A stretch of 54,600 nucleotides of DNA from Candidatus Brocadiaceae bacterium (lineage in GTDB: Bacteria; Planctomycetota; Brocadiia; SM23-32), in assembly GCA_012728835.1 (NCBI GenBank), contig JAAYEJ010000050.1, positions 1 to 54,600 on the forward strand, in the 5' to 3' direction. The notes below the pieces were generated by a model. It did no database searches. It was given only the letters and a program-made list of their open reading frames with translations, and was not told where the DNA came from. Below, in pieces: positions 12,132 to 29,679 of this stretch. A program made the translations under genes and the position numbers. Every line of letters starts with the position of its first letter. The stretch's first letter is position 1.

Positions 12132-12884
12132 CTAAGCTCCCTGGCCTGGGGCGGGTTGGTCCTCCGACGGCTCGCCGGCAAGCTGCTCGGTCGACTCTGC
12201 CGTGAAGGTATCCGAATGGATCCGGCCGTCCACGATGTGCAGCACGCGCCGGCAGCGGCTCACGATGCTGTGGTCGTGGCTGACCATGGCGATCGTGATG
12301 CCCTCGCGGTGCAGGTCGATCAGCAGGTCGAGCACCTCGTGCGCCGTGTGCGAGTCCAGGTTGCCGGTCGGCTCGTCAGCGAAGAGCACCCTCGGCTCGC
12401 CGACCAGCGCGCGGGCGATGCCGGCCCGCTGCGCCTGGCCGCCGCTCAGTTCCGCCGGCCGGTGCGTGAGCCGGTCGCCCAGGCCGACGCGCTCCGCCAT
12501 CTCGGCGGCGCGCCGTCGCCTCTGGGCACGCGCCACACCCTGGTAGGCGAGCGGCAGCGCGATGTTCTCCACCACGTCCAGCCGCTGCAGAAGGTTGAAC
12601 GACTGGAACACGAACCCGACCACCGAACTGCGCACGCGCGACAGCTCCCGGTCTTCCAGCGCCGCCACGTCCCGACCGTCCAGGCGGTAGACGCCCCCGC
12701 TCGGGCGGTCCAGACAGCCCATGATGTGCAGCAGCGTCGACTTGCCCGAGCCGGACGGCCCGGCGATCCCGACGAACTCGCCTTCGTCGATCTTCAGGCT
12801 GACGTCGTCCACCGCGCGCACTTGCACGCCGCCGCGCACGCCGTAGACCTTGCTCAGCCCCTCGACCTCGATCAGACTACCCAT
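12132..12884 (-). CDS. MacB/LolD-type ABC transporter ATPase
   Basis: A 250-residue ABC ATPase. Walker A is GPSGSGKST at about residues 41-49, the Q-loop is in FVFQSFNLLQ, the signature is LSGGQAQR, Walker B is VLFADEPTGNLD and the switch His is in VSHDH. The GNLD variant and the short length are typical of the MacB/LolD/DevA group. It starts at ATG 12884 inside the last codons of adaptor D1. The C-terminus carries about 25 extra polar residues. Its first 70 bases are nearly identical to 20860-20929, where a second copy of the gene has been reduced to 20 codons. Confidence 0.92.
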   Translation of the reverse strand: MGSLIEVEGLSKVYGVRGGVQVRAVDDVSLKIDEGEFVGIAGPSGSGKSTLLHIMGCLDRPSGGVYRLDGRDVAALEDRELSRVRSSVVGFVFQSFNLLQRLDVVENIALPLAYQGVARAQRRRRAAEMAERVGLGDRLTHRPAELSGGQAQRAGIARALVGEPRVLFADEPTGNLDSHTAHEVLDLLIDLHREGITIAMVSHDHSIVSRCRRVLHIVDGRIHSDTFTAESTEQLAGEPSEDQPAPGQGA

Positions 12885-15357
12885 GAGATGCTCCCTCGCT
12901 GGATGTTGCCTCGCCCTCCCCCGCCGGAGTCGCGGCCGCACCCTCCGGCAGCGGGAACACCTCCACCATCGCCGACATGCCAATGCACAACGGCGGCTCT
13001 TCGTCCAATGCCACGACCACCTGGAACAGCCGCCCATCCCGCACGCGCGTCTCCCCGACGTACTGCCGCGTCCAGTGCGCGAGCTCGGGCCAGGCGACGA
13101 CGTCCGTGACGCGGCCGCTGAACGTCCGCCCGGGCACACCCGCCAGCGTCAGACGCGCCGGCGCGCCCCGCCGGACCTTGAAGTAGTCCGATTCGTCCAG
13201 CATGGCGTGGACGGCAGCCTGCTCCATGTCGGCGATACCCATGAAATGCCAGCCCTGCTGCAACTCGGAGCCCTTCTCGGCCCAGCACCACGCCACGAGG
13301 CCGTTGACCGGAGAGACGATCTCGGCCCGGCCAGCCTTGCGGAGGCGACGCTCGGCCTGCGCACGGTAAGCTTCGAGCCGGGCGCCTGCCGTCTGGAGCT
13401 CGGCTTCGGCTTCTCTGACGTCAAGCTCGGCCAGCGCACGGGTTCGGGCAAGGGCGGCGCGCGCACGCTTCAGCCCGGCTCGGGCCGCCACGCGCTCCAA
13501 CGCCGCCGCGCCCGCCAGGATGTCCTGCAGAATGGCGTCCTTCTCGGCAAGCGTGGCCTCCGCGCGTCCCACCTGAAGCTCGGCCTGACGCACGTCGGCC
13601 GCACGCGCATTGCCCTCGGCAACGAGATCTGCGCAGGATTCCAGCCTACGCTTCGCCCATTCCAGTTGCCATTCGGCCTCGGACCGCTCGTTCTCCGCGT
13701 GGATGCGCTCCCGCGCCTCTGGTCGCGAGGCCAGCTCCTCGACGCCCAGTTGGGCGAGCGTGACGTCCGCCTCGGCTTCCGCTACGAGGAGCGGGACGAG
13801 TTCCTCCTTGAGGTGCACCTCGATCTCGGACGCTCGCCGAAGGACCTCCAGCCTGGCCAACTCGCTGGCGTCCTGCGCCCGCCAGTCCACCGCCAGGTCG
13901 GGGACGAGCGTTGCGACCACCTCCCCCTCTTTGACAGGAGTGCCTGCCGGAACAACCGAGATCAGTCTCCCCTGGAAGGGACAGCGTATCTGATGCGTCG
14001 ATTCCGCCGCAAGGCGGCCCCGCAGAAGCAATGCCGGTCGACCAAGCCGGCTGTCCGGCACCCGGTGCACGGGCTCCCACGCCGCCGCGTCGTCGGGTCC
14101 AGGGAAGATGCGCACGTCGGCCTTCATGCCCGGCCGCACACGCCGGCCGGCGTCACTCACCGCCACCAGCACACAGCCTTCGCTGTCGAGGATCTGGGTA
14201 GCGGTCTCCGCAGTCTCCCGCCGCGACGTCGACACTAACGCAAGCACGGACTCTACGGCGCCACGGTAGACGGTATCGGGCACACCGGGAAAGCCGATCT
14301 CGGCGCGGTCCCCCTCCTTCACGCGGAGCAGCTCCTCCTCGGGGACCTTCGCGGCGACCCGCACTTGACCCGGATCGACGACGGACGCAATCCTCTGCCC
14401 GTAGAACACGGGAGCGCCGGGCCCGAACCGCTGACCTTCCATGTGGAGCCAGTAGCCGTCTCGATCTCCGTAGAGGATCTCCCCCGCTGCGGGGGCGCGG
14501 ACCGTCAAGGCTTGCGTGCGTTTGAGGCTCAGTTCATATTCGCGCTTCGCCTGGCCGACTCCTTTCTCCCGGCTGGCGTCACAGAGCAAGCGCCGGCGCT
14601 CAGACTCGAGCTGCGCTCGCAACTCGGCCGCCTTCAGCCTCGTCCGGAGCTTCTCCACGTTCGCGGCCGCCTTCTCCTCCTCGAAGCAAGAGCCCTGCGA
14701 ACGCAGCCAATCGCCGAGGCTCTGCAGGTAAGCCGCGTCGGCCGTCCTGCTTTCGCAGCCATGCCGGGCCGTCATCAGTTCTGTCTCGGAGCAGAGACCT
14801 TCTGCACTGAGCTGGACCATTCGGTCCAACCGATCCTTGGCCTCCGTCCGTCGGGCCTCGTTCTCGGCGACCCGCGCGTCGAGTTGCGCCACGTCCACGG
14901 CACACGGGAGGGCCTGGAGAGCGGCCAGGTGCTGCTCCGCACCACGCAGGTCCGTGCGGGCCGCGAGCACGGCGGCCCGCAGATCCCCCAACGCGGCAGC
15001 CGCCTCCGCCTCGGTCCGACGCGCAACGGCCTCCGCCTGGCGCAACAGTCGCTCCTTGTCGCGCTGTTCGTCTTCAAGCCACGGGGTCTGGAGTTCCGCG
15101 ATCACGTCGCCCGCCTGCACGCGGCTCCACTCGGGGACGATTCTGGTGATCGTCGGCGCGAACGCTCCGTTCAACTCGACGTTCCAGAAGACGTCTCGCG
15201 GTTCAATGGCCTCGGCCGTTCCCTCGGCGGTGATGACCGCTGGCAGAGCGACGTCAGCGGCCGGCGCACCTCCACCGCCCTGGCCCTGCCCAAGGGCCAG
15301 GATCAGCGACAACGCTGCCGCCACGCATGCCATTCTCTGCTGGAACAACGCCCCCAC
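12877..15357 (-). CDS. adaptor D1: two HlyD/MacA modules in one chain
   Basis: An 826-residue periplasmic adaptor, about twice the usual length. GTG 15357 has GAGGAG eight bases upstream. After a signal segment (ACVAAALSLILAL), module 1 has a lipoyl half (RIVPEWSRVQAGDVIAEL), a long coiled coil, the second lipoyl half (LTVRAPAAGEILYG), and a beta-barrel ending RRVRPGMKADVRIFPG. A linker of about 25 residues follows. Module 2 repeats the plan: CPFQGRLISVVPAGTPVKEG, a coiled coil, AEIVSPVNGLVAWC, a barrel, and CIGMSAMVEVFP. Neither module has the membrane-proximal domain found in A and C. It sits five bases after C1 and overlaps the ATPase gene. Confidence 0.88.
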   Translation of the reverse strand: MGALFQQRMACVAAALSLILALGQGQGGGGAPAADVALPAVITAEGTAEAIEPRDVFWNVELNGAFAPTITRIVPEWSRVQAGDVIAELQTPWLEDEQRDKERLLRQAEAVARRTEAEAAAALGDLRAAVLAARTDLRGAEQHLAALQALPCAVDVAQLDARVAENEARRTEAKDRLDRMVQLSAEGLCSETELMTARHGCESRTADAAYLQSLGDWLRSQGSCFEEEKAAANVEKLRTRLKAAELRAQLESERRRLLCDASREKGVGQAKREYELSLKRTQALTVRAPAAGEILYGDRDGYWLHMEGQRFGPGAPVFYGQRIASVVDPGQVRVAAKVPEEELLRVKEGDRAEIGFPGVPDTVYRGAVESVLALVSTSRRETAETATQILDSEGCVLVAVSDAGRRVRPGMKADVRIFPGPDDAAAWEPVHRVPDSRLGRPALLLRGRLAAESTHQIRCPFQGRLISVVPAGTPVKEGEVVATLVPDLAVDWRAQDASELARLEVLRRASEIEVHLKEELVPLLVAEAEADVTLAQLGVEELASRPEARERIHAENERSEAEWQLEWAKRRLESCADLVAEGNARAADVRQAELQVGRAEATLAEKDAILQDILAGAAALERVAARAGLKRARAALARTRALAELDVREAEAELQTAGARLEAYRAQAERRLRKAGRAEIVSPVNGLVAWCWAEKGSELQQGWHFMGIADMEQAAVHAMLDESDYFKVRRGAPARLTLAGVPGRTFSGRVTDVVAWPELAHWTRQYVGETRVRDGRLFQVVVALDEEPPLCIGMSAMVEVFPLPEGAAATPAGEGEATSSEGASHG

Positions 15358-15361
15358 GAGT

Positions 15362-16765
15362 TCACTCCTCGGGGTTCAGCAGGATCCATTCCCCTTCGGC
15401 GAGCCCGCCGCGGATCACCGCAGTCGAGCTGTCCGCCGCCAGGACGTCGACCGATCGAGTTTCCCGGGTGCCGCCGGTCCAGATGACGACCTTGCCGTCG
15501 CGAAGGCACGCCCTCGGAACGATCAGGCCGTCAGCGTGCGCCACCTCTATGGAGGCGTCCCCCGTCATGTACGGCCGCATGTTCGGGGGCACGGCGTCCA
15601 GTTTGATCTCCACCTCAAGGTACTGCACGTCCGGCTCATCTTCGGCCTCGGCCAAGGCTTCCCCCACCTTCGACACCACGCCCGTCGCGGCCAGGTCAGG
15701 ACGCGCAAGAAACTGGACGCGGGCAGGCTGGTCGAGTGCGACAAGCCGGGAATCAGCTTCCCGCACGCGCCCCTGAAACACGAGAGCGTCGGTGTCGGCC
15801 AATTCAGCAACCACGAAGCCCCGCCAGACGGCGCGGCCGATCTCGACCTTCCCGCCCGACGGGGAGAACACCACGCCATCCCGCGGGGCCGTGATGCGCG
15901 TGTTCTGCAGGTCGTCTTCGAGCTGCGAGAGCTTCTGTCGCAGCGCATCGAGCGCGCTCTGCGCGGCCTTCTGTTGCGACTCGGCCTGCCGGATGCGTGC
16001 GTCTCGGCTCTGAGCCGCCTGCTCGTGCGAGACGCGGGCCTCGGTCAGGTGCGCCCGGGCGGTTTCCAGATCCTCAGCGCGCGCACCTGCCGAGGTGTCC
16101 TCCAGGACCTTCTGCGCTTGGGAGCGTTCCAGCACGGCGGCGGCGTACTCCAGTTCGGCGGCCCGCACGTCCTTCCCGCTCACGGCGCCCTCCTCGAACA
16201 TCTCACGCATCGATGCGAGCCGGTCCTCGGCGTAGCGGAACGACGCCTCGGCTCGAGCCACCCGCGCCCGGGCGACGGCGAGAGCACCAGGCAAAGGTCG
16301 GCTCTGCTCCAGGTCGAACTGCGCCTGCGCCACCTCTTGCGCGGCCGCCAGTTCGGCGATCTGGCCCTCGACGTCGGCCTTCGCCCGTTCGAGGGCGATT
16401 CGGGCCTCCGAGAGGGCCATCTCGGCAGACACCATATCCTCCTTGACGGTCAGGATGCCATCCTCGATATCGGTCGCATCCAGTTCGATTATCACCTCTC
16501 CCTGCCGTACCGCAGTGCCGTCGGGGACCACGCTCACCACCGACAGGCCGTCCAGCGCGCTAGTCACCCGTGTCTTCTCCGCTGGCTGCAACTTGCCAGG
16601 GACCCTTACCATCTGCCGGAAGGCCCCCCGCCGCACCTGCGCGAGAAGCGCACCAGGCGCATGCGGGGCGTTCGGCGTGCGCGTTGAGGCAGCCAGCAGG
16701 AGCAGCAGACAGAGGCCGCCTGTCCATCTCGCCCACCACAGGAGCCTTGTCTTTGCGCGTGCCAT
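15362..16765 (-). CDS. adaptor C1: single HlyD module with membrane-proximal domain
   Basis: A 467-residue adaptor starting at ATG 16765. An N-terminal hydrophobic anchor (WWARWTGGLCLLLLLAAST) is followed by a first lipoyl half (SVVPDGTAVRQGEVIIELDA) and a coiled-coil hairpin from about residue 100 to 275. The second lipoyl half is NTRITAPRDGVVFSP, then a beta-barrel ending PYMTGDASIEV. The membrane-proximal domain begins GLIVPRACLRDGKVVIW and ends AVIRGGLAEGEWILLNP. That last domain is absent from B and D. It lies between B1 and D1 with gaps of ten and four bases. Its paralog is C2 at 24259. Confidence 0.88.
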   Translation of the reverse strand: MARAKTRLLWWARWTGGLCLLLLLAASTRTPNAPHAPGALLAQVRRGAFRQMVRVPGKLQPAEKTRVTSALDGLSVVSVVPDGTAVRQGEVIIELDATDIEDGILTVKEDMVSAEMALSEARIALERAKADVEGQIAELAAAQEVAQAQFDLEQSRPLPGALAVARARVARAEASFRYAEDRLASMREMFEEGAVSGKDVRAAELEYAAAVLERSQAQKVLEDTSAGARAEDLETARAHLTEARVSHEQAAQSRDARIRQAESQQKAAQSALDALRQKLSQLEDDLQNTRITAPRDGVVFSPSGGKVEIGRAVWRGFVVAELADTDALVFQGRVREADSRLVALDQPARVQFLARPDLAATGVVSKVGEALAEAEDEPDVQYLEVEIKLDAVPPNMRPYMTGDASIEVAHADGLIVPRACLRDGKVVIWTGGTRETRSVDVLAADSSTAVIRGGLAEGEWILLNPEE

Positions 16766-16775: not shown

Positions 16776-19238
16776 CTACTCCTTGCCCGTCCGGGCGGCG
16801 GCCAACTCAACCGTCCCCGTCATTCCCGGCAACACCCGCAGCTCTTCGCCCTGCGGCAATTCGACAAGGACGTCCACTCGCGCCGCTCGGACGCCGGAGA
16901 GGCGGGGAGCGTCGACCATCGTTGACAGGATCTCCTCCCGGTCCGTCACGAGCGGCACGACCGAGAGCACTTCGCCGTCGAAGGCCCGCCCTGGGAATGC
17001 TAGTAGCTCGACCCGCGCCTTGTCGCCGATCGCCACGCGACCCAGATAAGGCTCCTCGACGACTGCGCAGAACTTGAGTCGCGACAAGTCCACGATGTAC
17101 CCGACACACTGGACCGACGCCGGAAGGTCGTCCCCAATGGAGACGCGCTTGCGAAGGTAATGGATGTAGGGGTTGTACATGATGCTCCCGGCTACGGGGG
17201 CGCGCACGATCCTGTACTCGTACTGGTCCTTGTAGTGCTGGGACTCCTCGTCAGCGTCGGCCACAGCAGCCTGAGCGACGGCCAGCTCCGCCTCGGTGAC
17301 GGACGCCATCTTGTCCGCCATTGCTTCGGCGAACGCGAGCTTCCCCTCGGCCTCTTCGAGGTCGAGTTCGGCCTCGCGGATCCGGGCGGCGGGAGCGCCT
17401 GCTTTCACCTTCGCCAGGCGGATCTCCGCCTCCCGAACGGCCAAATCGGCGAGCGACTCCGCCAGTTCCTTCGCCTGCAGTTCGCGGACCGAGTCCAGAC
17501 CGGCCTCCCGGGCCAGCGCCAGCCGTTGCCGGGCGCGCTCGCGTTCGATCTCGGCCCGGCGGAGTCTGGCCTCTTCCGCCGCAATGGGGTGCGGACCGGG
17601 CTGGGCCCGGAGCAGATCAAGTCGCAAGCCGGCGACTTTGCGCGCCATTTGCGCCTTCCTGACCTCCGCCCGCCAGCGACTCGTTTCGTTGTCCATCTTG
17701 CGGCGCAGTTGTTCGAGTTCGGCGCGCGCAAACTTGGGGGGATCCTCCGCCCGCTTCACATAGGCGTGCGTGTGGTAGCCGTTCGTCTCCAGGACCGCGT
17801 CGCCTTCGTTCAGCCAGCTATACTGCGGCGCCAGACGGATGATGGTCCCGGCGACGCTGTTGTGGGTGAGGACGGCCGTGCTGCGCACGGGTTCGACGGC
17901 CCCGGCGAATCGCAGTGCGTCCGGGGCGCTTTGCAGGGCTGGTCCGTGTGCGGAGCGCCCGGACGACCCTTCCGGCGTGGCGTCGGCGACTATCGTGGCT
18001 TCGCCGCCGAGGCCCGGCAGGAGCCCGTCCGGCGGGTTGTCGATCTCGATGAGCACCTCAAACTCCTTCGGCCGAGGCGATTCCAGTTCCGCGACAGCGG
18101 GCCGCTCCTCGTCTTCCCTGGCGCTGGCCACATCCAGCGACGTGACGCGGCCCGTGAGGACCTGTTCCGGAAGCGCTGACAGTGTGACCCGGGCAGTCTG
18201 CCCGGCATGGATACGCCCCAGGACACCCTCGCCGGCCCGTCCGCGGAAGCGGAATGCTCTCCCGCCGAAGATGGAGCAGATGCGCTCACCCCATCCGACC
18301 TCGACGCCGGGGCCCACCTTCTCAAACTGTCCGGACCCGACGTACGTCTTCTCGTAAGCAACAAAGCCGTCAGCGGGCGCCGTCCGCACGGCACCCGCAA
18401 TGATGCCTTCCCAGAGATCGACCTCCCTTTGGGCGAGGGAGAGCCGGTACTCCCCACCGCGCACGTCCAGGCGCGCTCTCTCGACTGCCAGCGACTTCTC
18501 GGCAATATCCAAATCGGCGTCCATCCGTGCCATGGCCAGTTCCGACTCAGCAATCTCGATCTCCCGCGATTCGGCACCTTGCTCCACTTCGCTCAGTTCT
18601 GCGCGCGCGACATCGGCGTCGGCAGCAGCGATGTCGGCGGCAAGCCGAGCCTCCATCACGGCCTGCCGGGCCTCCGCCTGGGACTCGACCATCGCATCGA
18701 CTGCCTCGACCTGTCGACGTGCCTCCTTCGAGTGCGCAAGCCGCAGCTCCAGGTCCGATCGGGCGGCAGACAGCTCGATCGGGTCGGGCAGCCCCCGGAG
18801 CCGTTCGACCGCCAGTTGCAGGGGCTGGAGGCGGGGCGCAGCCTTCTTCTTGGTCGCCTCAAGATCGGCCTGGGCGGCGCTGAGCCGGGCCTCTGCGCCC
18901 GCCAGTTCGGCTTCACGTCTCTTGACTAGCCCCTGGCAGTTGTCCCTCTCGCGCTCCCACAGGTTCGTCTCTACGCTCAGTAGGAAGTCGCCCTTGTGGA
19001 CGAAGGTTCCCTCAGGCACGATTTCCCTGATAACGTCACCCCGGAACTTCCAGTGGACCTCGCGCCGCCCAACCCAGACAGCATCGGCGGCCGAAATCTC
19101 GCCGGGGATCTGGATGCCCTGGACCACAGCCGCCGCATGCTCCTCGGCCGCTTGGGTCGACACGCCCCAGGAGCAGACCACAGCCAGCACGGCCAGGACC
19201 ACCTCGCACACTGCGCTCTTTGAGGAGAATCCACGCAC
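16776..19238 (-). CDS. adaptor B1: two HlyD/MacA modules in one chain
   Basis: An 820-residue double adaptor. GTG 19238 has AGGAGG eight bases upstream. A signal peptide (CEVVLAVLAVVCSWGV to TQAAE) precedes module 1: REIVPEGTFVHKGDFLLSVE, a coiled coil, VRTAPADGFVAYEKT, a barrel and GLLPGLGGEATIVAD. Module 2 begins near residue 425 with RFAGAVEPVRSTAV and GTIIRLAPQYSWLNEGDAVL. It continues through another coiled coil, YRIVRAPVAGSIMYNP, and a barrel ending LRVLPGMTGTVELAA. Neither half has a membrane-proximal domain. Coiled-coil content is very high in both halves. Paralog of B2 at 25661. Confidence 0.88.
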   Translation of the reverse strand: MRGFSSKSAVCEVVLAVLAVVCSWGVSTQAAEEHAAAVVQGIQIPGEISAADAVWVGRREVHWKFRGDVIREIVPEGTFVHKGDFLLSVETNLWERERDNCQGLVKRREAELAGAEARLSAAQADLEATKKKAAPRLQPLQLAVERLRGLPDPIELSAARSDLELRLAHSKEARRQVEAVDAMVESQAEARQAVMEARLAADIAAADADVARAELSEVEQGAESREIEIAESELAMARMDADLDIAEKSLAVERARLDVRGGEYRLSLAQREVDLWEGIIAGAVRTAPADGFVAYEKTYVGSGQFEKVGPGVEVGWGERICSIFGGRAFRFRGRAGEGVLGRIHAGQTARVTLSALPEQVLTGRVTSLDVASAREDEERPAVAELESPRPKEFEVLIEIDNPPDGLLPGLGGEATIVADATPEGSSGRSAHGPALQSAPDALRFAGAVEPVRSTAVLTHNSVAGTIIRLAPQYSWLNEGDAVLETNGYHTHAYVKRAEDPPKFARAELEQLRRKMDNETSRWRAEVRKAQMARKVAGLRLDLLRAQPGPHPIAAEEARLRRAEIERERARQRLALAREAGLDSVRELQAKELAESLADLAVREAEIRLAKVKAGAPAARIREAELDLEEAEGKLAFAEAMADKMASVTEAELAVAQAAVADADEESQHYKDQYEYRIVRAPVAGSIMYNPYIHYLRKRVSIGDDLPASVQCVGYIVDLSRLKFCAVVEEPYLGRVAIGDKARVELLAFPGRAFDGEVLSVVPLVTDREEILSTMVDAPRLSGVRAARVDVLVELPQGEELRVLPGMTGTVELAAARTGKE

Positions 19239-19259: not shown

Positions 19260-20774
19260 TCAGTCGCTCAGAATCGCCACTTCGTCGCCAGGCTCGAGCC
19301 CTGCGGCAATCACGGCCATTCCGTTGTGCTCCCCGGCGACTTCCACGGCCTGCGGTAGCCACGCGCCGCCGCGACGGACGAGGGCCCAGCGGCTATCCGC
19401 GGCCTCACGGAGGCATGCCTGTGGCACAAGCAGGACGGTGCGTGCCTCCGCGAGCGCTATCACGGCTTCACCGCTCATGTTCTGCGGCAGGTTCAGTCCT
19501 GCCGCGTGGTCGACGGCGATCACGACATCGTAGACGTTCACACCCGCATCTGGGCGCTCCTCCCAATTGGCGAACTGCGCCGTCCTCGAAAGGTCGTCGG
19601 CTGTGGCGCCGACCGCCGCCACCGTCCCGGCGAGCGTTCTGCCCGGCAAGCCGGGAATGCTGAGTTCGACCGGCTGCCCCACCGATATCTGCGCTACCTC
19701 GTCCTCGCCGGCGCGAGCGACAAACGCCCACTGCGACGGATCCAGAACCTGGGCGATCGTCGCCGTCCAGAGCGGTCCGACGCCGGGACGTGCCTTGCCG
19801 CCGACGTAGATGGGAGGGCGAACAACGATGCCGGCCATCGGCGCCCTGCGCGTCTCCCGCTCCTGGCACCCCAGCCAGTGGTCGAGCGCGGCCTGCTGCA
19901 CTTCGCCCGCACGCTCCGCCTGCGCGAGGTTCGCCGCGTGCAGTGCGCGGGCAGCGGCCGCCGCCTCTCGCGCCGACTCGAGCGCCGACTCCGCCTGGGT
20001 GACCGCGCGCCGCGTGTCGAGCAACTCGGCATCGCCAGGCTGGTGCGTCAGGACGGCCAGGTCCGCCTTCGCTTTCTTCAACTGTGCCTCGGCCAGGCGG
20101 TGCTTGTGATCGAGTTCCCGTGCGCTTTCCCGCGCGGTCAGGCCCTTCTCCGCCAGGCCCTTTGCGCGGGTCAGAGCGGTGGCCGCTGCGTCGCGCTCCA
20201 GCCGACAGCGCTCGCACGCCAACTGAGCCAACTGGAGGTCGCCCTCAAGGGGCCCTTCGTCGAGCGCCTCCAGGCGTATCCGGGCGCGGCGGAGCGCAAT
20301 GTCCGCCGCGCGCACGGTCTGCTGGTCCGTCATCTCGGCCAACTCGAAACGGGCGCGGGAGAGGCCCTCGCGCACCTTCCCGCGTCGCAAGTCCCGCTTC
20401 CGCTCCGCGACCCGTGTCTCGACCGTCTCGTTGAACACCGACGCCACTGGATCGCCCGCAGCTACGGCACTCGCTTCGTCCGCCATCCAGCCGACGATCA
20501 TCCAGTAGCAGTAGTGGCTGACGATGTCGTGCCAGTGCGTGGATCTCACCTCGCCGGGCAGCGTCAGCGTGGGCACGAATACATGACGGCCAGCGACTAC
20601 GCTCAGGCCGCTTGGCGTGAGCCGCGGAGGCGCGCTGAGGTCCTCCGCGCCCCAGGCAAGCCTCGCAGCATGCACGCACACGAGGAGCGCGACCGCCCGC
20701 ACGACTCGCCGGCTATCCACAGGCAACACGGGCCGTCCTCGCAGGAAGCAGGAAGACACGCCGTCCTCAGGCAT
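19260..20774 (-). CDS. adaptor A1: single HlyD module with membrane-proximal domain
   Basis: A 504-residue adaptor from ATG 20774. A signal anchor (VVRAVALLVCVHAARLAWG) is followed by a divergent first lipoyl half and a coiled-coil hairpin from about residue 125 to 290. The second half begins TRRAPMAGIVVRPPIYVGGK, then a barrel. The membrane-proximal domain starts LLVPQACLREAADSRWALVR and ends VIAAGLEPGDEVAILSD. The first 60 codons are nearly identical at DNA level to the truncated gene at 30169-30941 and then diverge abruptly. Its start lies inside the end of the ATPase remnant, so translation could be coupled to that fragment. Paralog of A2. Confidence 0.87.
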   Translation of the reverse strand: MPEDGVSSCFLRGRPVLPVDSRRVVRAVALLVCVHAARLAWGAEDLSAPPRLTPSGLSVVAGRHVFVPTLTLPGEVRSTHWHDIVSHYCYWMIVGWMADEASAVAAGDPVASVFNETVETRVAERKRDLRRGKVREGLSRARFELAEMTDQQTVRAADIALRRARIRLEALDEGPLEGDLQLAQLACERCRLERDAAATALTRAKGLAEKGLTARESARELDHKHRLAEAQLKKAKADLAVLTHQPGDAELLDTRRAVTQAESALESAREAAAAARALHAANLAQAERAGEVQQAALDHWLGCQERETRRAPMAGIVVRPPIYVGGKARPGVGPLWTATIAQVLDPSQWAFVARAGEDEVAQISVGQPVELSIPGLPGRTLAGTVAAVGATADDLSRTAQFANWEERPDAGVNVYDVVIAVDHAAGLNLPQNMSGEAVIALAEARTVLLVPQACLREAADSRWALVRRGGAWLPQAVEVAGEHNGMAVIAAGLEPGDEVAILSD

Positions 20775-20870: not shown

Positions 20871-20919
20871 GCACGCCGTAGACCTTGCTCAGCCCCTCGA
20901 CCTCGATCAGGCTACTCAT
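20767..20919 (-). pseudogene. ABC ATPase remnant (first 20 codons) fused to a 30-codon tail
   Basis: ATG 20919 opens a 50-codon frame whose first 20 codons (SSLIEVEGLSKVYGVRGGV after Met) match the start of the intact ATPase at 12884. The DNA matches 12825-12894 with three differences. The rest (EVQAAECVLT onward) comes from the 277-bp repeat and has no ATPase similarity, so Walker motifs are absent. Its stop lies at 20767, just inside adaptor A1, giving an ATGCCTGA overlap. The ATG overlaps the D-fragment stop as ATGA. This marks a deletion that removed the rest of this ATPase and probably a permease and channel gene. Confidence 0.85.
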
Positions 20920-21641
20920 GGGATGCTCCCTACACTGGATGTCTCCTCGTCCTCAGCCGCTCCCCCATCCGCCCCGCCTTCAGGAGCGGCGAAGATCTCC
21001 ACCATCGCCGACATGCCAATGCACAGCGGCGGCTCCTCGTCCAATGCCACAATCGCCTGGAACAACTGCCCGCCCCTCACGACCGTCTCGTCGCCCCTGG
21101 GGCGCACCCACCAGTCAAGCTCGGGCCAGGCCACGACGTCCGCGACGCGCCCGCTCAATCTGCGCTTGGGCACCCCCGCAAGGCTGACGAGCGCCGGCGC
21201 CCCTCTCTGCACCTTGAAGAAATCCGACTCGTCCAGCAAGGCGTGGACCTTCAGCTGAGTGTCGTCGGCGACGCCCATGAGGTACCTGCCCTTCTGCACC
21301 TCCTCACCGTCTTCCACAAAGCGATCAACGACCAGCCCCGACACGGGCGACATCACGTCTGCCTGAACCGACCGTTCGACTCGCCTGCGGGCGCCCTCGC
21401 GAAATGCGGCGAGGCCGGCCTCCGCGGCCTTCATCGATGCCCTGGCGACCTCCAGGTTCACCTCCGCCAGGACCTCCAACTCCTGAAGGGAAGCGCGCGC
21501 CACTTCGAGGGCGGAACGTGCGACAGCGCGCTCCGCCTCCGTCGCGCCGGCCAGCACGCGGTCATGCCGTGCGACCTTTGACTGGAGGATACAGAGCGCG
21601 TACGCCAATGCCGCCGTCCAGCTGCTTGCAGAACTGCCCAC
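20916..21641 (-). pseudogene. adaptor D remnant (C-terminal half of module 2)
   Basis: A 241-codon frame, with GTG 21641 as first possible start, matches the end of the D adaptors. It has part of a coiled coil, then ADVMSPVSGLVVDRFVEDGE, HALLDESDFFKVQRGAPAL, VADVVAWPELDWW and PPLCIGMSAMVEIFAAPEG. D1 has the counterparts HAMLDESDYFKVRRGAPARL and PPLCIGMSAMVEVFPLPEG. Everything before the middle of module 2 is missing. It lies 24 bases after intact D2 and keeps the D-to-ATPase overlap on its other side. It is the tail of a third D gene left by a deletion or unequal crossover. It might still be translated, but it lacks a signal peptide. Confidence 0.85.
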
Positions 21642-21665: not shown

Positions 21666-24254
21666 CTAACGCGTCCGGCTAGCAGGGGACAACCCTCCGA
21701 CTTCGCCCTGCGCAGCGGGCGAACGCGATGTCTGCGCCGCGGGCTCCGGCCGGTCACTGCGGTGAGGCACTCGGCTGTCGGCAGTGGGAAGGATCTCAAC
21801 CACGGCGGACATTCCAATGCATATTGGGGGATCCTCCTCAAGTTCAACTGTCGCCCTGAAGAGCCTACCTGCTCGGCCTTTCAACGAATCGGCGCCCGGT
21901 CGGTACCATGGCGGCGTGCCGAGCCAGTCCGTAATGGCAGACACGCGGCCGTGGAAGACCTCGTCGGGCAGGGCGGCCAGGCGAACGGACGCGCGGTCCC
22001 CGATCGCCAGGCGAAAGAAACCAGACTCGTCCATCATCGCATGCACGCATCCCCTCTCCATTTGGGCGACGCGCATCAACCACCAGCCCGCCTGGACTTC
22101 TTCCCCTTGCTGCACATAGAGGTCGCACACGATTCCCGTCGCGGGCGATTTCACAACTGCCAAGGCCGCTCTCTGACGGTGCCGGTCAACTTCGCGCCGG
22201 AACGCAGCAAGCCGTGCGGCGGCAACCTTCGCCTGAGCCGCCGCAACGCGAGTGTCCGCCTGAACGCGGGCGTCCACTTGCTGGAGCTCAGTGCGCGCAC
22301 GCTTCAGGTTGGCCTCGGCAACGGCGATCTCGACTGCAGGAGCGCCCCGTGCAACTCGGGCCAGCGCGGCGGACGCAGCTACTTCGTGCGCTGCGCTCAC
22401 GGCTTCTGCCAACTCACGCTGCTCGACATCCACAGCGGAAATGAGACCTGGGCCAAGCATGTCCCGGCTCGCGGCGAGGCGGTCACAGTCATCTTGGAGT
22501 TCCCGTTGGGACTCCACAAGCTCGTTCTCCGCCCTGATCCGTTCGGACGCGAGGGGGCGGGACGTCACCCGCTCCAGCGCGAGTTCCTGCAGAGCCACGT
22601 CCGTTTCCGCCGCGCGGCGCAGGAGCGGGGCAGACTGATCCCGGAGTTGCTGCTCGAGTTCAGCCGCACGCAGCAACCCCGTCAGGCGTCGTAGTTCGCT
22701 CTCGTCCTCGCTACGCCAGTCTTCCTCCAGTCCAGCCTCGACGCGCGCCACGACGTCGCCGGCCTGGACGAGGGTTCCCTCCTCGACGACCTCCGTGACC
22801 CGTCCCGAAAAGGGCGCGGTGACAGCGCGCTCCGACTCCCCCGCCAGGAGGCCGGACAGAACGATGGCATCCGGACGCAGAGAGGATGCGTCATCAGCAC
22901 TGCGTGAAATGCCTGGCCGGCCCCGCGAGGCGCCCGTGCTGCCGGCCTCACGGTCCGGCCCGCCCGACGCAGGGGAGATCCACCCGACGGCAGCCATGCC
23001 GGGACGGGCGCGTGCACCCGCGTCCCTCACGACGATGATAACGGTGCCGCACGGCGTGCCGCCCCCGCCGCCGGTCTCCGGATGCGCGAGCCGGCTCGCT
23101 CGCACGACGGGGAGCACAGTCTCCACTTCGCCCTTGCAGGTCAACCCGGGGATGGCGCGGAATCTCACCTCTGCCTCGTCGCCTCGGGTGATCGCTAGGA
23201 GGTCCTGTTCTGCGACCTCGGCCCTGACACGGAGGCCGTCGCCACCGACAACGGAAGCGACCGGTTGGCCACCGTAGACGGGCGTTCCGGGTGAGACCCT
23301 CCCGTCCGTCCCCAGCCCGTACGCAACATCCCAGTTGTCGCCGTGGCGCACACGCCCGGGCGCAGGCGCGCGGATCGTCAGGGCCTCCACCTTCCTTTCC
23401 AGGACGGCCAGCTGCTTCGTGGCCTGCGCCAACTCCTCCAGCTGCGCCACCTCGCAGAGCACGTGCCGCCTCTGCGTCTCGACTTCGTACCGGACCTCCG
23501 CGATCTCCAGGTCCAGGGCCGCCCGCTGGGCCTCGAGTGCCGCCTGCCGTGCGGCGAAGGAGGCGCCCTCTCCCTCGACCTCTTGCAGCACCTGTCGGAG
23601 GCAGTCGCTGTGGGATGCAAGTCGGAGGGTCTCACGCTGCGCGTCTGTCATGTCCCGGTCCGAACAGACCCCCGCCTCCTGTGACTCGGAGAGAATCCCG
23701 AGCCTCAGCTCCGCGAACCGGCAGCGGGCCTCATTGGATTCGAGATGGAGCTTGGCCAGACGTTGGTCCTCGTCGGTCGGCATCGCCTTGAGCAGCGCCA
23801 GCCGGTCGTTCGCCTGCTGAACCCTCATCCGAGCCGTGCTGCACTCGGCGCGAAGCCGGGCGAATGCGGCGCTTGCGTCCGCCCCGACCTTCTGCGACTT
23901 GGCATCCAGAACCTGCAGTTGGTGTTGGCTGATCGAGCGCTCCTCCATGAGGTACGGGGCATCCAGGAGCACAATAGCGTCCCCCTCCTCCACAGGAGCC
24001 CACTCGGGCACCATCGTGTGCACGACCGGCACATGCATCCGGTTGATGTGTATGGTGCACAATGCGTCCTTCGACAGCATCGGCTCGGCAACGCCCTCGA
24101 AAGCAATGCGAGTAGCGGCCCCCGCAGACGGAGGCGAGGGTCCCGTCGCATCTGCGGCCAGCCCGAGGCCGAAGGCAGACGCCGCCCACGCCAGCAACGC
24201 CACGCCGCAGGTCACCGAACCCACTGCCCTCTTGTGATCTGTCCACACAGACAC
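21666..24254 (-). CDS. adaptor D2: two HlyD/MacA modules in one chain
   Basis: An 862-residue paralog of D1 starting at GTG 24254, five bases after C2. The signal segment (VTCGVALLAWAASAFGL) is followed by module 1 (HTMVPEWAPVEEGDAIVLLD, coiled coil, LTIRAPAPGRVRHGDN, barrel, RARPGMAAVGWIS). A long Gly/Ser/Arg-rich linker of about 45 residues follows. Module 2 has APFSGRVTEVVEEGTLVQAG, a coiled coil, AVVKSPATGIVCDLYVQQGE, a barrel and PPICIGMSAVVEILPT. No membrane-proximal domain is seen. The C-terminus is longer than in D1 and disordered-looking. The next codons downstream belong to the D remnant, not to an intact ATPase. Confidence 0.88.
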   Translation of the reverse strand: MSVWTDHKRAVGSVTCGVALLAWAASAFGLGLAADATGPSPPSAGAATRIAFEGVAEPMLSKDALCTIHINRMHVPVVHTMVPEWAPVEEGDAIVLLDAPYLMEERSISQHQLQVLDAKSQKVGADASAAFARLRAECSTARMRVQQANDRLALLKAMPTDEDQRLAKLHLESNEARCRFAELRLGILSESQEAGVCSDRDMTDAQRETLRLASHSDCLRQVLQEVEGEGASFAARQAALEAQRAALDLEIAEVRYEVETQRRHVLCEVAQLEELAQATKQLAVLERKVEALTIRAPAPGRVRHGDNWDVAYGLGTDGRVSPGTPVYGGQPVASVVGGDGLRVRAEVAEQDLLAITRGDEAEVRFRAIPGLTCKGEVETVLPVVRASRLAHPETGGGGGTPCGTVIIVVRDAGARARPGMAAVGWISPASGGPDREAGSTGASRGRPGISRSADDASSLRPDAIVLSGLLAGESERAVTAPFSGRVTEVVEEGTLVQAGDVVARVEAGLEEDWRSEDESELRRLTGLLRAAELEQQLRDQSAPLLRRAAETDVALQELALERVTSRPLASERIRAENELVESQRELQDDCDRLAASRDMLGPGLISAVDVEQRELAEAVSAAHEVAASAALARVARGAPAVEIAVAEANLKRARTELQQVDARVQADTRVAAAQAKVAAARLAAFRREVDRHRQRAALAVVKSPATGIVCDLYVQQGEEVQAGWWLMRVAQMERGCVHAMMDESGFFRLAIGDRASVRLAALPDEVFHGRVSAITDWLGTPPWYRPGADSLKGRAGRLFRATVELEEDPPICIGMSAVVEILPTADSRVPHRSDRPEPAAQTSRSPAAQGEVGGLSPASRTR

Positions 24255-24258
24255 GCCG

Positions 24259-25671
24259 CTACCCCTCGGGAAGCAAACGGACCCACTGGCCGGTGGTGAG
24301 GCCGGACTTCACGACGGCGAAGGTTCCGTCGGTCGCCAACAGCTCGATCGCCGTCACCCGGGCACGGTCACCATCGAGGACGGTGACCGTCCCGCCGCGG
24401 ACGCATGCCTGCGGGATGACGAGCGCGCTCGGCACCCCAGCCACCGTGACCTCCGCCCGACCGCCCATTCCTGGCTGGACGCCGGCCGGCGCAGAAGCAA
24501 GCTCGATGTCGACCTCCAGGAAGCGCATGCCGGGCACCCCTTCCTCCTCGACCAGGGCACTGCCCACGCTCACAACCGTTCCCTCCAGCGGCTGCCGCGG
24601 GAGCGACAGCAGGCAAACCCGGGCGCTCTGGCCTGCCTCGATGAGCTGGGAATCACACTCCCGGGCTCTGGCGCTGAACAGGAGCGTGGACGTGTCCGCA
24701 AGCTGCACAAGCGCCCTGCCCCGACGCGCTCCCTCCCCGAGGGCGGCCCTTCGGCCGCCAGGCGCGAAGACCGTCCCGTCGTGCGGGGCCTCGATCCTCG
24801 TTCCGGCCAAGTCCTCGCGCAGTCCTGCCAGCTTGGCCCGCAGGCGTTCGAGGTCCTCCCTCGCGGAGGCAACGGCCACCTCAGCCTGTCGGGCGCGCCC
24901 CTCGCTGCTTCCGCGAGCTTCTTCCAGCGAGGCCCGCACGCCTGCCAGTTCCGCCCGGGCGGCGTCCAGGTCCTCCTGGCCTGCTCCCTCCTGCACCAGG
25001 TCGAGCAAGCCCCGGGTCTTCTGTTGCTCCAGCGCCGCAGTGTAATGCGCGAGTTCGGCTTCCCTGAGTTCACGTTGGCTCAGAACGCCGTCGTCGAACA
25101 GGATCCGCGAGATCTCCCGCCAGCGTTCTGCATAGGCGCACCTGGCCGATGCCTCGTCCAGTGCGGCTTGTGCCGATGCCAGGTCCTCAGCGAACGGCCG
25201 GCCCTCCACCATCGCCAGCCGCGCCTCGGCCACGGTCAGGTCCGCTTCCAGGTTCTCTATGTTGGCGCCGATTCCCCATTTGGTCCTCTCGGAGGCGGCT
25301 TCAGCGGCGGCCAGTTCGGCTTCCGCTGTGTTGATCTCGCCCACAACGTCCTCGACCTGACTCTCCAGAGACGTCGGATCCAACCGGACGATCACGTCGC
25401 CCGCCTTGACCGCGGCCCCTTCGGGAGCCATGTAGGTGATGACGGGCCCTGACAGCGGGCTCGTGATCTGCGTCGCCTCGGCCGCGCGCAGGTCCCCGAC
25501 GCACTGAACAACGTGCTCGAAGTCGCGCAGACGCGCCTGACTGGCAAGGGGGCCCCCGGCGGGTTGCTGCGGCTGCACGCCCACTGCACCCACAGCGCAC
25601 AGGGCCAGCGCACAGGCAACCGGCGTGCGCCTGCGCCGTGCGAAGCGGCTCCCTGTCGGTTCAGTCCGCAT
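24259..25671 (-). CDS. adaptor C2: single HlyD module with membrane-proximal domain
   Basis: A 470-residue paralog of C1. ATG 25671 overlaps the end of B2 by 11 bases. The N-terminus is a short basic segment and a hydrophobic stretch (VACALALCAVGAVGV). First lipoyl half: TYMAPEGAAVKAGDVIVRLD. A coiled-coil hairpin follows. Second half: GTRIEAPHDGTVFAPGGR. The barrel ends AGVQPGMGGRAEVTVAG. The membrane-proximal domain runs from ALVIPQACVRGGTVTVLDG to VVKSGLTTGQWVRLLPEG. It holds the same position in the A-B-C-D order as C1. Confidence 0.88.
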   Translation of the reverse strand: MRTEPTGSRFARRRRTPVACALALCAVGAVGVQPQQPAGGPLASQARLRDFEHVVQCVGDLRAAEATQITSPLSGPVITYMAPEGAAVKAGDVIVRLDPTSLESQVEDVVGEINTAEAELAAAEAASERTKWGIGANIENLEADLTVAEARLAMVEGRPFAEDLASAQAALDEASARCAYAERWREISRILFDDGVLSQRELREAELAHYTAALEQQKTRGLLDLVQEGAGQEDLDAARAELAGVRASLEEARGSSEGRARQAEVAVASAREDLERLRAKLAGLREDLAGTRIEAPHDGTVFAPGGRRAALGEGARRGRALVQLADTSTLLFSARARECDSQLIEAGQSARVCLLSLPRQPLEGTVVSVGSALVEEEGVPGMRFLEVDIELASAPAGVQPGMGGRAEVTVAGVPSALVIPQACVRGGTVTVLDGDRARVTAIELLATDGTFAVVKSGLTTGQWVRLLPEG

Positions 25672-28171
25672 CGTCGGCCGCTCCCGATATGGACTCCTTG
25701 TCTGTGCTCCGAGCATAGCCCGTCATCTCGGGCAGAACGTCGCTGGCCTCCATGTCCTCGGGCAGGCCAAACGCAATATCGACTCGACCGCACTGGACGC
25801 CGGACGCCCGCTTTGTCTGGCCGTCCCGACTCAGGACCTCCTCCCGGTCCTGCAGGATGGGCATGACGCCGAGAACGGTCCCCTGGAAGACCCGCCCCGG
25901 AAAGCACAGGAGTTCGATGCTCATCTCCATCCCCGGCTTGAACCGGGAGACATACGGCTCCTCCACAACGGCGTGGAACACAAGGGACGTCAGATCGGCA
26001 ACGTAGCCGACGTTCACGCCTGCGACCGAGTCGCCGTCGCTGAGGCGGGCCTCCGTGTACTGAACGCTCTCGCAGAACACGACGTGCCCGGATCCGGGCG
26101 ACCGGACAACGCGCGCCTCGTACTGCTCCTTGAACAAGCTCAAGAGATGCGACACGCGCGCCAGCGACACCTCGGTCTTGACCACAGCGGTCTCCTGCTG
26201 TGCCGCCGACAGTTCCCCCTCTGTACGCATCGCGTCGAGGTCGCTGCGCAGGCGCCGAACAGCACGCTCCGCCTTACCGAGCTCCGGGGCGTGGGTCCTG
26301 TTCTGCATCTGCGCCAACCGCAGGTTCTCCTCCTCAACCGCGAGCCCGGCGAGCACCGCCGCCAGCTCCAGCTCCTCAAGCCTGGCCTGTGAGTCGACCG
26401 CCGCCTCGCGAACAGCGAGCAGCCGGGCCAGGGCGATCTCGTGTTCCGCCTCCGCCCTGCGGACACGGGCCTCCGCCATCTCCGTCGCCGAAGAGGACGG
26501 GCGAGCCCGAAGCTGGGCCACGCGGAGTTCAGCAATGCGCAGGCGGAGGCCGGCCTCGTGCAACGCGTCCCGGTGCAGACGCGCGTCCTCCTCGCCCTTG
26601 AGCCTGGCCATGGCCAGTTCGGTCTCCAGCACTGTCGGGCCGTCTTCCCTTGTGCGGAGCAGCTCACGGGCAGCGTCGCCCGTGCACCGGACGATGACAT
26701 CCCCTTCCTCGACCCGCTCATACTGGTCCGCGATGTCGGTGACGTGGCCGCCGGCCCACGGCAGGAAGATCCAGGCCTTGTCCTGGGCATCGACGCACCC
26801 GGGAAGCCGCAGGAAAGGAGGGTCGCCGGTCGGTCGCTCGCCATCGGTCCCCCCGGCAGGACCGGCGTCGCCGCCTGACACGGGCAAGACCACGTCCGCC
26901 GTGCCGCTGAGGCCGGGCATCAAACCGTCGGGCACCTCGCTGAGCGACACGACGATGTCGAAGAACTTGGGCCTGACCGCCTCCAGTTCGCGGGCCACGG
27001 AGAACCCCGACGGCTGGGTTGTCAGTGGGATGTCGACGTCTGCCACCTTGCCAGACAGCACGACACCGGGCAGGGCACTCAGACGGACCTCCGCCGCTTG
27101 CCCGGCTTGCAGGCGGCCGAGAAATGCCTCGCTTGCCTTCGCTCGGAAGCAGAAGGACTCACCCCCGATCAAGGCAGCCACGCGCTGGGACAGCTGGATC
27201 TCCGTCCCCGGCGCTACCTTCTCAGTTCCCCCACCGCCGGGAAGCCGTGCGTAGACGACGACGCCGTCGCTTGGAGCGCAGTGCGTAGTGCTGCTGAGGT
27301 TCCGCTTCGCCAGATCCAGTCGGCTCTGCGCCCGCTCGCACAGCGTGCGGCTGAACCGAACGCCGATCTCCGCCCGAGCGACCTGGTGTTCGGCCGCCGC
27401 AACAGCGGCGTCTGCCTTCGCTGCAGCGATCTCCTCCTCCAGTCGGGCGATGGCGAGTTCGTCGGGGTCAGCCCCGCGCTGCACACGGGCCAAGTCGGCC
27501 TCCGCACATGCCCACTCAGCCGACGCGATGTCGCGTGAAAGACGTGCGAGCGTCTTGGCCAGTTCGGACGTCCCGTGTTCCTCCGCAAGCTCCAGAACCG
27601 CCGCATACTGCCGCTCGGCCTCCTGCAGCATGGCCTTGCGTGCGGCGAATGTCGACTCTGCCCGGAGCAGGTCCGCACGGGTGGGCAGTGACTCCAGGTG
27701 AGCGATGCGAGCCCGGCAGAGCGCTAGGTCAGCATCTGTGCGCCCCCGCGCGACCTCCAGTTCGCCCTGACGCGTGGCGCGCTGCAACTGGGCGGACTCC
27801 AAGTTGAGTTCCGCCTTCTTGAGTGCGGACTCGGCAGCCTTCAGAGCTCTCCCGAACTTGGTCTGATCGACCTGGAACAGGAAGTCGCCCTCCTTGACGT
27901 GCGACCCCTCTGGGACGATCTTGTCGATCACAGTACTCTGATACTCCCAGTCGCATGTTCGACAGCCCACCCACACGGCGTCTGTGGCCTCTAACACGCC
28001 GGCCAACGCAACGACCTCGGAGGAAGCGGCAGGGCGGACGGACGCGGCAGTCCCGGCATGGGGGTCTGATGACTGGGCCCCCATGACCATGGCCAGGCAG
28101 CACAGGCCCGGAGCAAGCACGGAACCCAGCGCCAGCCACGCTGCCCTTGCCCGCACTCCCATCGACACCAT
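25661..28171 (-). CDS. adaptor B2: two HlyD/MacA modules in one chain
   Basis: An 836-residue paralog of B1. ATG 28171 has AGGAGG seven bases upstream; the open frame reaches 28339, but the extra part lacks adaptor features. A signal peptide (AAWLALGSVLAPGLCCLAMV) is followed by module 1: DKIVPEGSHVKEGDFLFQVD, coiled coil, SDGVVVYARLPGGGG, barrel, DGLMPGLSGTADVVLPV. Module 2: RLPGCVDAQDKAWIFLPW, DIADQYERVEEGDVIVR, a coiled coil, ARVVRSPGSGHVVF, and a barrel ending DVLPEMTGYARST. There is no membrane-proximal domain. The pair-specific signature VVEEPYVSRFKPG corresponds to VVEEPYLGRVAIG in B1. Confidence 0.88.
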   Translation of the reverse strand: MVSMGVRARAAWLALGSVLAPGLCCLAMVMGAQSSDPHAGTAASVRPAASSEVVALAGVLEATDAVWVGCRTCDWEYQSTVIDKIVPEGSHVKEGDFLFQVDQTKFGRALKAAESALKKAELNLESAQLQRATRQGELEVARGRTDADLALCRARIAHLESLPTRADLLRAESTFAARKAMLQEAERQYAAVLELAEEHGTSELAKTLARLSRDIASAEWACAEADLARVQRGADPDELAIARLEEEIAAAKADAAVAAAEHQVARAEIGVRFSRTLCERAQSRLDLAKRNLSSTTHCAPSDGVVVYARLPGGGGTEKVAPGTEIQLSQRVAALIGGESFCFRAKASEAFLGRLQAGQAAEVRLSALPGVVLSGKVADVDIPLTTQPSGFSVARELEAVRPKFFDIVVSLSEVPDGLMPGLSGTADVVLPVSGGDAGPAGGTDGERPTGDPPFLRLPGCVDAQDKAWIFLPWAGGHVTDIADQYERVEEGDVIVRCTGDAARELLRTREDGPTVLETELAMARLKGEEDARLHRDALHEAGLRLRIAELRVAQLRARPSSSATEMAEARVRRAEAEHEIALARLLAVREAAVDSQARLEELELAAVLAGLAVEEENLRLAQMQNRTHAPELGKAERAVRRLRSDLDAMRTEGELSAAQQETAVVKTEVSLARVSHLLSLFKEQYEARVVRSPGSGHVVFCESVQYTEARLSDGDSVAGVNVGYVADLTSLVFHAVVEEPYVSRFKPGMEMSIELLCFPGRVFQGTVLGVMPILQDREEVLSRDGQTKRASGVQCGRVDIAFGLPEDMEASDVLPEMTGYARSTDKESISGAADDAD

Positions 28172-28182
28172 CTCCGGGCCTC

Positions 28183-29679
28183 CTACTCGGCCAGCAGGGC
28201 CACTGTCTCGCCGGCCTCCAGCCCCAACGTCACGGCGAAGTGGTCCTCGTCCATCAGGTGCCCTTCCAGTTCGCGCGGACGCCACGCGCCCCCGGCCTTC
28301 ACCAGAACCCACGCTCCGTCCGACGCAATCGCCACGCACGCCCGCGGCAGGACGAGACGTTGGGCCGGGGCCCCAACCTGCAGGGCAGCCCTACCGTTCA
28401 TCCCTGCGCGGACATCGGCACCGCCGACGGTGCTGATGGTCACGTCGTAGAGCCCAACCCCTGTCCGCTCCCACGACTCCTCCTGGCCGAAGAACTGCCG
28501 TTCCGCCAGGTCGCGGGTTGTCAGGGCCACGGACGTCACCGTGCCGGCCAGCGGCCGCCCGCCCAGAGCAGACAGGTACACTGTCGCCGGTTGTCCCACG
28601 GAGAGGCGAGCCACATCGCGCTCGGCGGCGGACGCAACGAACACAACGCTGCCAGGATCAACAATCGTCACTATGGGAGAGACACAGAGCGTGTTCAGGC
28701 CCGGTCGTGCCTTCCCGCCCTTGTAGGTCGCGGGCCAACAGGTGACACCTGAGCGGTCCGCCTCGATCCGCAAGCTCGCCCGTCTCTTCGCCCACACGAC
28801 TGCAGCCGCTTCTGCCGACCCGGCTGCTGCCTCAGCCACGGCCACGTCAGCACTCAGGCTCTCCTGCTCGCCAGCCAGAGCGTCCCGAGCTGCGGCCAGT
28901 GCCGCCTCTGCCTCCTCAACCTGGCCGCGCGCCGCCAGCAGGTCCTCACCCGACGCGCCTCGCAGAGTCTTCTGCAATGTCAACTCCGCCTCGTCCCAGT
29001 CGTAGCCGGCCAACGTGAGCTTGTGACGGATTGCCTCCTCGTCACAGCCCGCACGCGCATCGCTGGGAAGTGCCGCCAGCCTCGCGAGCGACTTGGCGAA
29101 GCTCTGGGATCTCAGGCGTGCCTTCTTGACGGCCACCTGCACGAGCGCCACTGCCTCGGGGGAGGGACCAGCCTCCAAGTCGCTCAGGTACGCCCGGGCT
29201 TCTTCCAGATCTTCCTCCGCCTTGCGCAATGCGTCCTCCGCCCGGTGCCTTGCAGCCGCGGCCCTCGCCTGAGCGATCCGCAGATCGGCCTGCGCCTCCC
29301 TGGCACGGTACGGTGCCTCCTCAACGCTGAGGAAGAACCATATGTAACTTCCCAGCACCGCTACCAGGTCCCCGGGCGCGACCACTTCTCCCTCGGGAAT
29401 CAGCCACCGAATGCTCATCCACGTCGCATCACTGGATAGCACGTTCTGCTTCTGCGTCGCGACGGTCTCCCCAGGCAGCACGACAACTGGCGCAACGTCT
29501 GTGGCCTGCACGCGCACCTGGACCCCACTTGGCACAAGCCTGGGAGATCGCGACGCCTCCCGACCGCCCCCCCCAACAACCTGCACTGGCAGAGACGCAA
29601 TGGCCGACGCTAGCCAACCAGCGACTACGAGCACACCCACACCCACAACAACACCTGCGCACTTCGGGGTGATTGCCAT
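28183..29679 (-). CDS. adaptor A2: single HlyD module with membrane-proximal domain
   Basis: A 498-residue paralog of A1, first gene of the upstream adaptor set. ATG 29679 is preferred to GTG 29709 because a typical anchor (GVVVGVGVLVVAGWLASAIA) follows directly. First lipoyl half: RWLIPEGEVVAPGDLVAVLG. A coiled coil follows. The second half contains TCWPATYKGGKARPGLNTLC, where A1 has the equivalent YVGGKARPGVGPLW. Barrel, then a membrane-proximal domain from LVLPRACVAIASDGAWVLV to VTLGLEAGETVALLAE. It does not share the 277-bp repeat with A1. A consensus promoter lies about 95-120 bases upstream. Confidence 0.87.
   Translation of the reverse strand: MAITPKCAGVVVGVGVLVVAGWLASAIASLPVQVVGGGGREASRSPRLVPSGVQVRVQATDVAPVVVLPGETVATQKQNVLSSDATWMSIRWLIPEGEVVAPGDLVAVLGSYIWFFLSVEEAPYRAREAQADLRIAQARAAAARHRAEDALRKAEEDLEEARAYLSDLEAGPSPEAVALVQVAVKKARLRSQSFAKSLARLAALPSDARAGCDEEAIRHKLTLAGYDWDEAELTLQKTLRGASGEDLLAARGQVEEAEAALAAARDALAGEQESLSADVAVAEAAAGSAEAAAVVWAKRRASLRIEADRSGVTCWPATYKGGKARPGLNTLCVSPIVTIVDPGSVVFVASAAERDVARLSVGQPATVYLSALGGRPLAGTVTSVALTTRDLAERQFFGQEESWERTGVGLYDVTISTVGGADVRAGMNGRAALQVGAPAQRLVLPRACVAIASDGAWVLVKAGGAWRPRELEGHLMDEDHFAVTLGLEAGETVALLAE

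Follow-up and report, generated by a model that had tools for sequence, protein, structure and literature searches.

Two complete sets of four adaptor genes stand ahead of a single MacB-type export pump in a planctomycete genome, and the proteins of each set carry six distinct HlyD/MacA modules between them. From the sequences we slightly favour the reading in which the four proteins of a set, A, B, C, and D, would join at 1:1:1:1 in a single ring with six different modules. The usual view of an adaptor ring is of one protein in six equivalent copies, which obscures the matching of a dimeric pump to a trimeric channel; in the window, each ring position seems to have been labelled by evolution with its own protein or module.

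Two adaptor gene sets and their pump

The window analysed here (the whole stretch of 54,600 nucleotides, 69% GC) belongs to one metagenome-assembled contig of a genome of 3.07 Mb in 82 contigs. A neighbouring contig encodes a protein bearing an LEPRVMLS motif. The adaptor run lies at 12877-29709 on the minus strand and comprises two complete four-gene sets, each ordered A-B-C-D; read along the minus strand from 30941 to 9267, the full order is an A-like remnant, A2-B2-C2-D2, a D-like remnant, A1-B1-C1-D1, ATPase, permease, and channel. In set 1, A1 (19260..20774, minus strand; Pfam HlyD_D23, 1e-9) is a single-module adaptor with its module at residues 311-439 and a membrane-proximal tail of 65 aa, and C1 (15362..16810, likely start 16765, minus strand) is likewise a single-module adaptor, with its module at residues 308-421 and a membrane-proximal tail of 61 aa. 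B1 (16776..19238, minus strand; modules at residues 287-416 and 680-811, tail of 9 aa) and D1 (12877..15357, minus strand; modules at residues 288-417 and 682-800) are two-module adaptors without a membrane-proximal tail. Set 2, also on the minus strand, repeats this pattern with the single-module adaptors A2 (28183..29709; 34% identical to A1) and C2 (24259..25716, likely start 25671) and the two-module adaptors B2 (25661..28171; the start is estimated and the open frame reaches 28339) and D2 (21666..24254; 37% identical to D1). Intergenic spacing inside the sets ranges from -11 to +21 bp.

Pfam HlyD_D23/HlyD_3 matches occur in all adaptors of both sets. For module counting we built a local profile from all six modules of set 1, covering the lipoyl C-half and the beta-barrel; it finds one module in each A and C and two in each B and D, the same in both sets, giving a tally of 1+2+1+2 = 6 in set 1 and set 2 alike. 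Both methods thereby bear out the original prediction of two A-B-C-D sets with six modules each, although the run as a whole amounts to 13 modules (6+6+1) once the D-like remnant is included. With its end at 29679, the interval first proposed leaves out 30 bp of the A2 frame, which extends to 29709; it took in the adaptor sets and omitted the ATPase, permease, and channel genes at 9267-12884.

Those three genes, all on the minus strand, encode a MacB/LolD-type ABC ATPase (12132..12884; Pfam ABC_tran, 1.6e-30; N-terminal part of the NCBIfam MacB model, 4.8e-69), a MacB permease with periplasmic core (10886..12130; MacB_PCD, 6.7e-35; FtsX, 6.8e-21; residues 263-648 of the NCBIfam MacB model at 1.4e-62, which is below the equivalog cut-off), and a TolC-like outer-membrane channel (9267..10889; Pfam OEP, 8.3e-46; TolC-family model at 4.3e-27, below cut-off). 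The D1, ATPase, permease, and channel genes touch or overlap, with an overlap of 8 bp between D1 and the ATPase. Only three MacB_PCD proteins are present in the genome, namely that of the window locus, one on contig C47 with its own adaptors, and one longer protein elsewhere, so this assembly holds no separate pump for set 2.

Set 2 is bordered on both sides by broken genes. Between the two sets, the D-like remnant (20916..21641, minus strand; 20847-21641 with part of the D/ATPase junction) preserves the C-terminal end of a third D (241 aa), is 54-55% identical to D1 residues 613-823, and matches the D1/ATPase junction at its end over 458 bp at 77% DNA identity. Upstream of set 2, the A-like remnant (30063..30941, minus strand; DNA piece 30063-31037) encodes the N-terminal ~255 aa of a third A and then runs out of frame; it is 48-49% identical to A1 residues 1-252, and 317 bp match the A1 start region (20554-20870) at 93% DNA identity. 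Because one remnant resembles the A1 start and the other the D1/ATPase junction, set 2 is framed by the ends of a third, broken set, and it looks like a replacement or insertion inside an older set copy.

Beyond the adaptor run, a sigma-54 interaction-domain protein is encoded upstream and divergently on the plus strand (31936-33510) and is a candidate regulator. An MlaD protein, an ABC ATPase, and an ABC_trans_aux lipoprotein follow in a row at 33695-36197, forming a Mla-type lipid transport cluster that adjoins the pump locus.

Anatomy and conservation of the six positions

Alignment of all modules reveals that each of the six consists of a lipoyl N-half, a helical hairpin, a lipoyl C-half, and a barrel. 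The AlphaFold2 model of D1 (six input sequences; mean pLDDT 74.5, pTM 0.48) resolves the chain into two complete lipoyl/hairpin/barrel units, one after the other. Each comprises short strands and three long helices and ends in a beta-rich part, and the short linker between the units (residues 421-440) has low model confidence; a fold search matched EmrA and MacA. Past the barrel, A and C continue for ~61-67 residues with a conserved membrane-proximal pattern, and B and D for only 9-41 residues, so that the membrane-proximal domain is confined to A and C. In line with this, the A1 model contains an additional beta domain (residues 445-502, together with N-terminal strands at 54-66), and no such domain appears in the D1 model. 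As A and C alone carry it, a ring of six modules would hold two membrane-proximal domains, a number that may match the two MacB subunits. In a locus from the wider survey described below (L100, 7836-10406), a two-module adaptor has kept this domain after module 1 and lacks it after module 2, and compared with the window adaptors it is an intermediate state of membrane-proximal domain loss.

The set recurs outside the genus. One intact A-B-C-D set of 1+2+1+2 modules is found in another genus of the same family (genome G001, contig DAOVRD010000058.1, locus L027), followed downstream by the same ATPase and permease as far as the contig end. Its proteins are 52-59% identical to those of set 1, with codon differences of 0.23-0.33 at positions 1 and 2 and 0.52-0.55 at position 3; as the first two positions differ far less than the third, purifying selection acts on the adaptor proteins. 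G003, from a third genus, contributes an A and the start of a B before its contig ends. Among nine family genomes searched, several of them incomplete, we found no other clear orthologues of the set, and a scan of genome contigs returned just the G001 locus and one weak Elusimicrobia match.

In the module tree, the copies from set 1, set 2, and G001 come together in one clade at each of the positions A, B-m1, B-m2, C, D-m1, and D-m2 (m1 and m2 being the first and second modules of a chain), supported at 99-100. The six roles therefore predate the separation of the two sets. Position-specific marks common to all copies are visible in the alignment as well: B-m2, for example, has a 3-residue deletion at its hairpin tip, and D-m2 lacks a loop.

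Module totals and the composition of the ring

We searched 392 Planctomycetota genomes with B and, separately and independently of the adaptors, with the MacB permease, fetched ~120 loci, and counted modules within the same-strand gene run of each. The total is one module in 95 loci, two in L002, L201, and the cut loci L036 and L121 (= L217), three in L028, L099, L100, L101, L102, L104, L110, L113, L139, and L140, and six in L027, with the window standing at 6+6 plus remnant. Ten loci have none, seven of which lie near a contig end, and totals of four or five are absent from the ~120 loci. The whole sample amounts to ~430 Planctomycetota genomes. Runs from the permease search only (n=79) divide into 66 with one module, 1 with two, 2 with three, and 10 with none. 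Very long single-adaptor reading frames were inspected for a hidden second module, and none was found; their N-terminal extensions mostly have non-coding codon-position GC.

The expectation that related loci would always total six thus fails when taken literally, with totals of one, two, and three observed, and holds for G001. Because one, two, and three all divide six, these totals count against "always six" and not against a six-membered ring; the smaller loci fit such a ring only with several copies in use, the three-module loci with two copies of three. That all totals divide six is suggestive, and the pattern reflects few independent events, with one origin for the six-set in this sample and one or a few for the three-sets.

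Comparison among three-module loci suggests what is being counted. L028 has three separate adaptors (1+1+1), and L099 and L100 have one single and one double (1+2), beside a fused MacB. In the module tree, the first, second, and third adaptors of L028 pair, respectively, with the first adaptor of L099/L100 and with the first and second modules of their double (SH-aLRT 93, 98, and 95; starred in a second tree). Given this correspondence of positions, a fusion (or a split) of genes 2 and 3 left the total unchanged. A parallel case is a two-module chain in G003 that resembles two neighbouring adaptors from the second MacB locus of the window's genome. Such equivalence is the strongest indication that counting would go by module and not by gene. 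Separately, L101, L102, L104, L110, L112, L113, L139, and L140 represent a widespread three-adaptor Planctomycetota MacB system in which every position forms its own clade, and which seemingly has no description in the open literature searched.

We propose that the window encodes a planctomycete MacAB-TolC-like ABC export pump whose adaptor ring would combine six different modules in place of one protein repeated six times. We infer that single copies of A, B, C, and D would supply the six modules of one ring between the MacB dimer and the TolC-like trimer. The ring order would probably be the gene order, A-B(m1)-B(m2)-C-D(m1)-D(m2), and fused modules would sit side by side; A and C would then lie three places apart, where the membrane-proximal domain of each could meet one MacB subunit. 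With two complete sets and one shared pump, two alternative rings may exist. Exactly six modules per set are found in set 1, set 2, and L027, and are in this way conserved between genera. The fixed mixed ring of the original prediction has become likelier through the G001 set, the fusion with constant total, the position-specific clades, and the two membrane-proximal domains. More tentative is the full picture, to which we give somewhat less than even weight, in which each set forms an ordered ring of six non-equivalent modules with two pump-contacting domains, the cell chooses between the two rings, and Planctomycetota present a series of one, two, three, and six distinct modules.

The main rival to one mixed ring per set is a pair of alternative rings, A2B2 and C2D2, in which each pair of proteins would provide three modules and one membrane-proximal domain and be used in two copies. 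By module counting this equals 1:1:1:1 (B3 or D3 homotrimers also give six), the membrane-proximal tail is kept in both A and C, and for L099 and L100, with one single and one two-module protein beside a fused MacB, a 2x(1+2) ring is the simplest arrangement. However, set 1, set 2, and G001 all retain the four genes side by side, and no locus with A+B only or C+D only occurs among the searched genomes (the G003 contig ends after the start of B), which makes separate A2B2 and C2D2 rings unlikely in our judgement. Less probable again are independent homomeric rings, A6, B3, C6, and D3, which would give the pump four alternative adaptors for different substrates or conditions. Such rings would follow the rule that adaptors are homohexameric (PMC5985334), and the 95 surveyed MacB loci with one single-module adaptor are the majority; yet the membrane-proximal domain is absent from B and D, the four genes overlap or lie 4-21 bp apart within sets, every position is strictly conserved as a set member, and free loss of members would predict totals of four or five, which the surveyed loci do not display.

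Mixing of set 1 and set 2 subunits at each position, yielding a family of rings, appears improbable at an identity of just 34-37% between the sets, enough for their interfaces to have diverged, even though both sets precede one pump in a genome that has no more than three MacB_PCD proteins, one of which is served by separate adaptors, and the position-specific clades denote equivalent positions. We find it very hard to credit that the run is an accidental tandem-duplication expansion with no fixed ring, in which six would be a coincidence. The locus is clearly duplicated and broken, with a remnant A and a remnant D framing set 2, and recent duplicates do occur in two-adaptor loci; against this, the 1+2+1+2 order recurs in another genus at 52-59% identity with codon differences typical of conserved proteins, and only the remnants are broken, whereas both full sets are intact.

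If one mixed ring per set is correct, the genetics of MacB pumps could be done position by position, separating positions that touch the pump, positions that touch the channel, and positions that are dispensable. Loci with one, two, three, and six modules would offer a natural series for the transition from homomeric to heteromeric rings.

Known systems and origin of the six-module set

In MacAB-TolC, MacB is present as one dimer, MacA as a hexamer, and TolC as a trimer (PMC5985334). The window resembles this pump in having a MacB-type permease (a MacB periplasmic core with an FtsX-like domain), a MacB/LolD-type ATPase in the same operon, an adjacent TolC-like channel, and MacA-like adaptors with a lipoyl/hairpin/barrel arrangement in every unit. 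It differs in that MacAB-TolC has one MacA gene, whereas the window has four adaptor genes and six distinct modules per set, in two sets, and in that ATPase and permease are separate genes. Judged from the genes, the window lacks both a single adaptor gene and a membrane-proximal domain in every adaptor unit.

TriABC-OpmH of Pseudomonas aeruginosa needs both TriA and TriB, which presumably assemble as a mixed hexamer or as a trimer of dimers (PMC4338810). Like the window locus, it combines different adaptor proteins with a single pump in a presumed mixed ring, but the two one-module adaptors of TriABC sit on an RND trimer, in contrast to four proteins with six modules on a MacB dimer; the window pump is of the MacB type and not an RND transporter. 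DSY0927 of Desulfitobacterium hafniense is a natural two-adaptor fusion (PMC4338810, PMC4446572), and fused AcrA dimers are functional (PMC4446572). Like B and D, DSY0927 joins two different adaptor modules naturally and is an adaptor of an ABC transporter; its N-terminal half is reported without a coiled coil, whereas D1 is modelled with full hairpins in both modules, and the window pairs two fused chains with two single-module adaptors. The three-module MacB loci of Planctomycetota share the arrangement of several position-specific adaptor modules ahead of one MacB pump, and differ in having three modules, two copies of which would make a ring, where the window sets have six. DevBCA-type exporters have one DevB adaptor; the DevB-family model matches A1 at 1.3e-9 and the DevA-family model matches the ATPase at 4.1e-54, both below cut-off and lower than the scores of other models.

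Heteromeric adaptors and fused adaptors are both already known, and the window set is a variant of them. The original statement that no system with this design had been described was too strong in view of the TriA/TriB heteromeric pair and the DSY0927 fusion (PMC4338810, PMC4446572). For a four-protein, six-module 1:1:1:1 adaptor set on a MacB pump, we found no description in the open literature searched.

In the permease tree, three-module and six-module pumps are grouped (support 87), and the six-module pumps fall inside a 98-supported clade with the three-module pumps of L028, L099, and L100. This placement makes it plausible that a 1+2 half-ring was doubled to give the six-set. When scored by profile against the positions of L028, L099, and L100, five of the six window modules fall in collinear order, and type II three-module loci give no collinear match to the window positions by such scores. 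Among 36 constrained maximum-likelihood trees, the collinear doubling ranked 11th, 52 log units under the free tree; AU tests gave p values of 0.126 for B-m1 with D-m1, 0.054 for B-m2 with D-m2, and 0.277 for A with C. ABCD as a simple doubled three-module set is therefore plausible from the permease tree but not supported by the constrained trees.

Two-adaptor loci can be recent duplicates, as in L201, where the two adaptors are sisters in the module tree. The second MacB locus of the window's own genome (L002; G000:C47, 3293-9289) has two adjacent long single-module adaptors of 650 and 689 aa. A two-module adaptor of 1073 aa in G003 (L093; C134, 1401-4622), with a membrane-proximal tail on each half and no pump genes beside it on its 7.2 kb contig, resembles both adjacent L002 adaptors joined in one chain. 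On another contig of the window's genome (L001, 6732-10884), adjacent proteins of 727 and 651 aa each carry a C-terminal HlyD-like module, and by eye the N-terminal part of the first is membrane protein-like and that of the second GAF-like.
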